Program-made: the position numbers and the translations under genes
Part shown: positions 10,697-12,233 of the stretch, one piece after another
Numbering within the stretch: the stretch's first letter is position 1
Layout: each line of letters starts with the position of its first letter
From: Methanomicrobiales archaeon
Lineage (GTDB): Archaea; Halobacteriota; Methanomicrobia; Methanomicrobiales; JACTUA01
DNA: 35,383 nt
Reading direction: 5' to 3'
NCBI GenBank assembly: GCA_030019205.1
Contig: JASEFH010000024.1
Location: 1 to 35,383, forward strand
The notes under the pieces: generated by a model
Told to the model about the DNA's origin: nothing
Seen by the model: the letters and a program-made list of their open reading frames with translations, nothing else
The model's database searches: none

Positions 10697-10972
10697 ACGG
10701 GGTGCCGCTTCCGAATATCTCGGATGCTCGGGATAAGGATTGGGTTCATGCCCCTCCGCGTGAGAAGAGCACCAGTCGTGCGGTGAAGCTGGGACGGGTG
10801 TCGTCCGAAGGGGCATTCTCTGAACTGCGGGGCACGGTGCATTCCCTTCCCGCTCATCCCCGTTTCGCGATGCCAATGAGCGGAGCATCATGCCCCGAGC
10901 CCGGGCGGCCAGGCCTGTTCGCACCCGGCAGGTTGCGGATGCGGTTCCTGTCGAGACAGGAGAGGCTCGGTA
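10697..10972. other. Intergenic region between divergent genes
   Basis: This divergent stretch between the CPBP gene and the SatD-like regulator holds several small overlapping frames without family resemblance. The functional content appears to be at its right end, where the tandem palindromes begin. Confidence 0.4.
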
Positions 10973-11024
10973 TCGCTTATATCATATTTATATAAGCGAA
11001 AATACTTATATTATGCCGATATAA
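10973..11024. promoter_or_regulatory. Two tandem TTATAT-N7-ATATAA operators
   Basis: Site 1 (10977-10995, extended to a 10-bp perfect inverted repeat 10973-10982 / 10990-10999) and site 2 (11006-11024) both read TTATAT-N7-ATATAA. Their centres are 29 bp apart, near three helical turns. Site 2 overlaps the best TATA-like element (CTTATATTA, 11005-11013) for the regulator gene that starts at 11066. Because that gene encodes a C-terminal HTH, autoregulation is the simplest reading. The site architecture is direct observation; binding is inference. Confidence 0.6.
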
Positions 11025-11065
11025 CTCACTGTTACCGCCTCCATTCCGGGTGGCATGTGGTACAT

Positions 11066-11776
11066 ATGGGGCACGATCCTGCGCAGCGGCTCTTTGCGAT
11101 CCTGACGGGCGATCTCGTCGGGTCCTCCCGCTACAGCGCGTCGGAGAGGACCGAGGTGCTGCAGCACCTGGAGACCACCCTCTCCCGGATGCGGCAGTTC
11201 TACGCCTTCCGGATGCCGCCACCGCGTGCCCCGCCCACCGTAGACTACTACTTCTTCCGGGGAGACAGTCTCCAGGTGTACCTGCCCTTCCCCAAAAAGG
11301 GGCTGGAAGCCGCCCTGTTCATCCGCACGAGCCTGCTTTCGGCGGATCTTGCGAACAGAGCAGATGCGCGCATTGCCGTCGGCATCGGGAGGATCTCCTA
11401 CTTTGCCGAGCAGCTCGAAAGGATGGACGGCGAGGCCTTCCGGCTCTCGGGCGCCGCCCTCGAGCAGCTGGACAGGACGCAGCGGCACCTGATCGTGCGG
11501 ACGCCCTGGAAGGACGCCAACGCGGAACTGAGCGTGGAGTGCGCACTGTTGGACGAGCTCATGGAGAGGTGGACGGGGAGGCAGGCCGCCGCCGTCTTCC
11601 ACCGCATCACGGAAGGGAACCAGGCCCGCGCTGCAGAGATGCTCGGGATCACGCAGCCCGCTATCTCCCAGCAGCTGCGGGCGGCGGGTTTCTCCGCGGT
11701 GCAGGAGTTCCTGGACCGCTTCGAGTCGCTCATACCGGAGTACTGCGTCGAAGAACCGCTGGAAAAAGCGGAATGA
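11066..11776 (+). CDS. SatD-like cyclase-fold protein with C-terminal HTH
   Basis: A 236-residue protein. The N-terminal about 170 residues resemble the SatD family and, more distantly, class III nucleotide cyclases: FAILTGDLVGSSRYS, DYYFFRGDSLQVYLP, ALFIRTSLL, ARIAVGIGRISYF and MDGEAFRLSGAALEQL occupy the places of the cyclase DivGST, GDg, GiG and G-x-aRL elements. The second metal Asp and substrate residues are not clear, so a ligand-sensing rather than catalytic role is likely (inference). Residues about 185-215 form a helix-turn-helix, RAAEMLGITQPAISQQLRAAG. SatD genes are often beside DUF3307 genes, and the next gene is such a partner. A GTG at 11057 is an alternative start. Two tandem palindromes lie upstream. 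Confidence 0.72.
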   Translation: MGHDPAQRLFAILTGDLVGSSRYSASERTEVLQHLETTLSRMRQFYAFRMPPPRAPPTVDYYFFRGDSLQVYLPFPKKGLEAALFIRTSLLSADLANRADARIAVGIGRISYFAEQLERMDGEAFRLSGAALEQLDRTQRHLIVRTPWKDANAELSVECALLDELMERWTGRQAAAVFHRITEGNQARAAEMLGITQPAISQQLRAAGFSAVQEFLDRFESLIPEYCVEEPLEKAE

Positions 11777-11831: not shown

Positions 11832-12233
11832 ATGGTGTTTGCCGCCGGGATCGGCAGCGAGGCGCTTATCTCCCCCCTGCACGTCCTCATCATCCTGGCC
11901 GCCTATCTCCTGGTCGTCTGGCCCAGCGGCCCCCTGATCGGGCGGATCATCCAGAGGTGGAAACGGACGCCTCCTTCTGCCGCCCCGGAGCAGCGGAAGA
12001 GCCTGGACAAGGCCGGCAGGTGGATCGGGTACCTGGAACGGATCCTCATCCTGACGTTCGTCCTCCTCCAGGAGTACACGGCCATCGGGTTCCTGGTGAC
12101 GGCCAAGTCGATCTTCCGGTTCGAGGCCACGCGGCAGGAGGGGGAGTACATCCTGCTCGGAACGCTGCTCAGTTTCAGCGTCGCCATCCTTGCGGGAGTG
12201 CTGGTGAATGCGGTCCTGTCGCTCATCCCCTGA
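11832..12233 (+). CDS. Membrane protein resembling the C-terminal half of DUF3307 proteins
   Basis: A 133-residue protein with one transmembrane helix near the N-terminus (about 13-35) and two more after residue 65. The middle and end match the C-terminal region of DUF3307-containing proteins: LDKAGRWIGYLERILILTF, EYTAIGFLVTAKSIFRF, and GEYILLGTLLSFSVAILAGV. The about 120-residue DUF3307 domain that normally precedes this is absent, so it is a short version. In bacteria DUF3307 proteins are found next to SatD proteins, and here the SatD-like regulator ends 55 bp upstream, which supports both assignments. Function of the pair is not known. The start follows a TATA-like box with leaderless spacing. 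Confidence 0.7.
   Translation: MVFAAGIGSEALISPLHVLIILAAYLLVVWPSGPLIGRIIQRWKRTPPSAAPEQRKSLDKAGRWIGYLERILILTFVLLQEYTAIGFLVTAKSIFRFEATRQEGEYILLGTLLSFSVAILAGVLVNAVLSLIP

Follow-up and report, generated by a model that had tools for sequence, protein, structure and literature searches.

A half-site array of fixed pitch is the probable autoregulatory operator of a SatD-family regulator in archaea and bacteria

Two palindromes of the same architecture stand close together upstream of a gene for a helix-turn-helix (HTH) protein in a Methanomicrobiales archaeon, raising the question of which protein binds them and to what effect. Within the window, by which we mean the whole stretch of 35,383 nucleotides that was analyzed, an earlier note had reported two copies of TTATAT-N7-ATATAA at a distance of 29 bp, and both were found exactly as described, at 10977-10995 and 11006-11024, 29 bp apart from centre to centre. 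A longer palindrome with perfect 10-bp arms, TCGCTTATAT-N7-ATATAAGCGA (10973-10999), encloses the first copy, and the second has arms of 6 bp only. A scan of the whole genome to which the window belongs (G000, 2.73 Mb) returned no third exact copy and four further places with one mismatch, while shuffled versions of the window held on average 0.06 matches at up to two mismatches, none of 100 shuffles reaching two. We consider it likely, with a probability of roughly 0.83 and judging from sequence, that the palindromes serve as the operator through which the SatD-family regulator encoded at 11066-11776 controls its own gene. They are read as the control site of this protein because a layout with a 28/29-bp repeat recurs before the genes of its relatives, and because the letters of the operator change with the DNA-reading helix.

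The regulator gene (plus strand, ATG at 11066 with an alternative GTG at 11057) encodes P0001, a protein of 236 residues with a cyclase fold at about residues 8-145 and, as had been claimed, a C-terminal HTH. In an AlphaFold model of P0001 (pLDDT 91.5), the HTH helices span residues 186-193 and 197-206, the latter being the recognition helix, with Q197, P198, A199, and Q202 as recognition residues. Compared with Pfam on its own, P0001 gave only weak HTH matches and, lying outside the reach of the SatD profile (PF16264), did not attain its cut-off of 29 bits, which was reached by relatives aligned over the full length (L006, 29.4; L112, 41.3; L116, 48.8). Homologues from the whole-genome search aligned with P0001 from end to end, and the protein holds the SatD core TGD..RGDSxQ..DxRIAxGxG..GEAF followed by the C-terminal HTH, as do the homologues that pass the cut-off. 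Invariant or near-invariant columns are likewise shared (T14-D16, R65-S68, Q70, R102, G106, G108, G122, A124, F125, and the HTH at 186-206). For the N-terminal domain, the best PDB neighbours in Foldseek were GGDEF domains (6eib, E 2.5e-4), class III adenylyl and guanylyl cyclases, including the adenylyl cyclase Ma1120, and GTP cyclohydrolase III, and a profile search matched 3mr7 (E 9e-5) and Ma1120 (E 0.002). Profile match, predicted model, and Foldseek all assign this domain to the class III/GGDEF cyclase fold. P0001 shares with these enzymes the fold and the positions of two metal-type aspartates, D16 and D67, which are conserved among its relatives; it differs from them in that the fold is fused to an HTH, and it is a putative cyclase only. 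Relatives in other genomes were found with an alignment query, a single-sequence query of the genome contigs having given none. Two of them (L007 and L014, 579 and 527 aa in total) carry a long C-terminal extension resembling TPR repeats, two others lie on plasmids of Segatella copri (NZ_CP137558.1) and Sphingomonas insulae (NZ_CP048421.1), and a viral scan returned one SatD relative.

Between the two palindromes, and built from identical half-sites, sits an inverted repeat, TATAAG-CGAAAATA-CTTATA (10991-11010), which is the sole match to TATAAG-N8-CTTATA in its own genome when up to one mismatch is allowed. Half-sites start at 10976 (CTTATA), 10991 (TATAAG), 11005 (CTTATA), and 11020 (TATAAC). 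Read in this way, the array would consist of one full unit, half-sites 2 and 3, where a single SatD dimer is predicted to bind, and of two orphan half-sites that flank it at the expected distance. Half-site 1 (CTTATA, 10976-10981, minus strand), the left arm of the first palindrome, would be the right half of an upstream unit, and half-site 4 (TATAAC, 11020-11025, plus strand), the right arm of the second, would be the left half of a downstream one. The N7 palindromes would then be half-sites of neighbouring units paired across units. A 16-bp inverted repeat, TCCTGTC-GA-GACAGGA, occurs once in exact form in this genome, at 10946-10961, 14 bp upstream of half-site 1. No Rfam family was found in the window, and searches with PADLOC defence models and for terminators close by gave no match either.

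The layout was then compared among dereplicated upstream regions of relatives from Methanomicrobiales, Methanoperedens/ANME-2, Methanosarcinales, Bacteroidota, Jettenia, Omnitrophus, and others. A search that presupposed no motif found 6-mers directly repeated at a distance of exactly 29 bp in 47 of 67 upstream regions, where 5.4 would be expected and no more than 12 appeared in any of 100 shuffle sets; at 58 bp, such repeats were present in 20 of 67 (4.6 expected). Paired 20-bp palindromes, for which periods of 21-44 bp were tried in 111 dereplicated regions, fell at 28 bp in 18 and at 29 bp in 45, with every other period found in none to two; this amounts to 63 of 111 regions, and the same pairing turned up in none of 555 shuffles and in 8 of 1376 control stretches taken from elsewhere in these loci. 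Most typically, relatives carry TATAAG-N8-CTTATA units separated by N9 (6+8+6+9=29), and other lineages hold the same layout with TATAAC, TATTAG, TATCAG, TATGAG, TATCGGGTT, TTTAAG, or TGCAACC, including the less AT-rich operators TATCGGGTT..AACCCGATA and TGCAACC..GGTTGCA. Palindromes at the promoter of the regulator itself, kept in its relatives, are thus what was found. About 40% of the relatives miss the strict palindrome threshold, and several of these look like satD placed directly behind another gene without a promoter of its own. The strict score, based on 20-bp units, leaves out the window, whose array is in the other register; scored with 21-bp units, the window gave 21.5 at its own period and 17.0 at the best other period tried.

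The most serious competitor takes the N7 palindromes themselves, at 10977-10995 and 11006-11024, as the two dimer sites in place of the N8 unit between them. Within the window alone this has its appeal, since it takes in all four half-sites and no arms are longer than those of the first palindrome (10 bp). The relatives argue otherwise: with TATAAG-type half-sites written as > and their complements as <, arrays of the TATAAG/TATAAC type mostly start with > and finish with <, 23 being whole >< arrays and 3, the window included, <><>, with three more having an odd number of half-sites, and one relative (L116) carries just one such unit, a perfect 20-bp >< palindrome. We therefore regard the N7 assignment as unlikely and retain the N8 unit, the window array, in its rarer <><> arrangement, being one that may be degenerate. 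Of the earlier expectation that N7-spaced half-sites and a 29-bp period would be conserved, it is the period that held, the conserved pairing being N8; similarly, the letters TTATAT/ATATAA are not kept in all orthologues, conservation being that of the layout, with letters that follow the recognition helix.

Across archaea and bacteria, arrays mostly consist of whole >< units with 4 or 6 half-sites. The longest, upstream of satD in L155, has 11 alternating half-sites at a 29-bp pitch. Besides the 29-bp layout, the upstream region of L008 contains direct repeats of GATATCTATTCCTGATA at 18 bp, and that of L006 a repeated block of about 47 bp. Four loci (L065, L066, L072, and L085) show no palindrome array, and satD there apparently follows directly after a gene whose product has an ABC-F ATPase-like C-terminus; satD is probably transcribed from another promoter in these cases.

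The position of the array may bear on the sign of control. The probable TATA box, TTTATATA (10987-10994, plus strand), is of exact archaeal type, overlaps half-site 2, and falls within the right arm of the first palindrome, although the second had been proposed. Transcription would be expected to start at about 11014-11019, given the position of this box. A second TATA candidate, CTTATATTAT, is found at 11005-11014, and half-sites of the window overlap both. This overlap with the core promoter suggests autorepression. Alternatively, the SatD protein could bind its own promoter through these sites and activate it, or switch sign with a ligand. The evidence for binding, namely, the period and the covariation described below, is silent on sign, and in some Bacteroidota, where the array was compared with candidate -7/-33 promoter elements, it seems to end tens of bases upstream of a candidate -7 element, an observation of secondary weight. 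The overlap of both TATA candidates in the window weighs against activation, as does the short distance, at most about 35 bp, between the end of the array and the start codon in half of the relatives; protein bound there would block initiation. Activation is thus quite improbable in our view, and we continue with repression.

Which protein owns the sites was addressed through covariation between operator and protein at 76 loci, one of which is the window, its half-site having been entered by hand from the 10991-11010 unit. When mutual information was calculated between protein columns and half-site bases, the top columns by z score were the recognition-helix residues 199, 202, 198, and 197, and residue 202 ranked first of 194 columns when the signal was summed over half-site bases 4-6. 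Moreover, the partial correlation between operator distance and residue distance, controlled for N-domain distance, peaked at residues 197/198/199/202 (r=0.36), the best of 187 residue sets (mean 0.03), and 0 of 2000 permutations reached this value. Residue 202 was associated with base 6, Q occurring with G in 22 of 27 cases and K with C in 13 of 19 (Fisher p=4e-7); kinship among loci is partly controlled, and the p-values of the covariation are to be read as strong, not exact. The correspondence runs from Q to TATAAG, K to ..AAC, Y to TATGAG, H to TATTAG, and E/D to TATCG, and the window fits it, with Q202 in P0001 and sites that read TATAAG. Operator bases therefore follow the recognition helix, and this makes the encoded SatD protein itself the likely binder. 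That a different DNA-binding protein owns the sites, satD being merely a target, is very improbable: one promoter can serve several regulators, and we found no support for such an owner, while in archaea and bacteria alike the layout accompanies satD and its letters change with the recognition helix of SatD. Chance is negligible as an explanation, for although archaeal promoters often contain TATA-like words and could form palindromes where they are AT-rich, the exact motif has no third match in 2.73 Mb, the period is confined to 28/29 bp and absent from all 555 shuffles, and the less AT-rich operators keep an identical layout.

We thus propose that a P0001 dimer would bind each TATAAG-N8-CTTATA unit through its C-terminal HTH, and that at the fixed 29-bp repeat each dimer would touch the next, or in the window the single subunits seated on its two orphan half-sites, and so bind cooperatively; such contact is suggested by the tolerance of only 28 or 29 bp. 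Since the TATA box lies within the array, bound protein would keep TBP/TFB out and so lower the output of the satD-DUF3307 operon. A ligand, probably a nucleotide or a similar compound, would be sensed by the cyclase-fold domain at the N-terminus and would make binding weaker or stronger. What has been computed is the sites themselves, their conserved period, the way in which operator and helix covary, the overlap with the promoter as judged from coordinates, and, in the genome of the window, the confinement of exact sites to this one promoter; from these results we infer dimerization, cooperativity, repression, and ligand sensing. The earlier proposal of a dimeric, cooperative binder gains from the conserved period, with its dimer unit moved to the N8 pair between the palindromes, and that of autorepression by the adjacent HTH protein gains from the covariation as far as self-binding is concerned, repression being suggested by the core-promoter overlap.

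As for the extent of control, four genomes, namely, that of the window, G542, G544, and G545, have exact TATAAG-N8-CTTATA at the satD promoter and at no other place. G543 has one copy away from its satD promoter, and a scan of G546 returned none; the satD loci leading to these two genomes (L089 and L106) carry TATAAC and TGCAACC operators. Such restriction of exact sites to the satD promoter suggests that control is local, limited to satD and what follows. In most relatives, the next gene encodes a DUF3307 membrane protein (PF11750 E 7.6e-21 in L055). Some Methanoculleus-type loci have satD with an array and a different gene next. In the window, the gene that follows satD (11832-12233, plus strand) matches the L055 partner at 57% identity (E 2e-43) over the C-terminal half only (about residues 120-240). 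Neither a PF11750 domain nor a full-length DUF3307 protein was found in this gene or elsewhere in the genome, and the gene appears as an N-terminally truncated relative of the DUF3307 protein. P0001 and its relatives differ in how they match the Pfam descriptions: relatives reach the SatD cut-off and most are followed by DUF3307, whereas P0001 scores on the HTH only and its partner lacks the DUF3307 domain.

In line with the earlier note, no operator or regulatory role of SatD-family proteins was found in the open-access literature, subscription journals being outside the search, and DUF3307 had one passing mention there. LexA is an autoregulated repressor with palindromes at its own promoter and an operator sequence that differs between phyla. 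The SatD system resembles repressors of this type in its own-promoter palindromes and lineage-specific operator letters, and differs in three respects: it has a single target in the genomes where this is testable, its units stand in tandem with an invariant repeat distance of 28/29 bp, and its fold is unrelated. An autoregulated HTH regulator is thus of a known kind; as far as can be checked in the open-access literature, the combination of a cyclase-fold regulator with a fixed-pitch array, shared by archaea and bacteria and following a specificity code that can be read, represents a new form of it. More tentatively, at somewhat less than even odds, SatD proteins may be one-component nucleotide-sensing autorepressors, shared by archaea and bacteria and acting on a single promoter, in which the cyclase-fold domain governs how dimers assemble cooperatively on arrays of invariant 28/29-bp pitch with up to 11 half-sites, and with a residue-to-base code centred on residue 202. 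A widespread uncharacterized family, of which one scan yielded 386 relatives among its candidates, gains a proposed role, a predicted binding site, and a testable specificity code, together with a promoter architecture in which spacing is constant and sequence free across domains of life. The satD-DUF3307 operon, and what the cyclase-fold domain senses, are now open to direct experiment.
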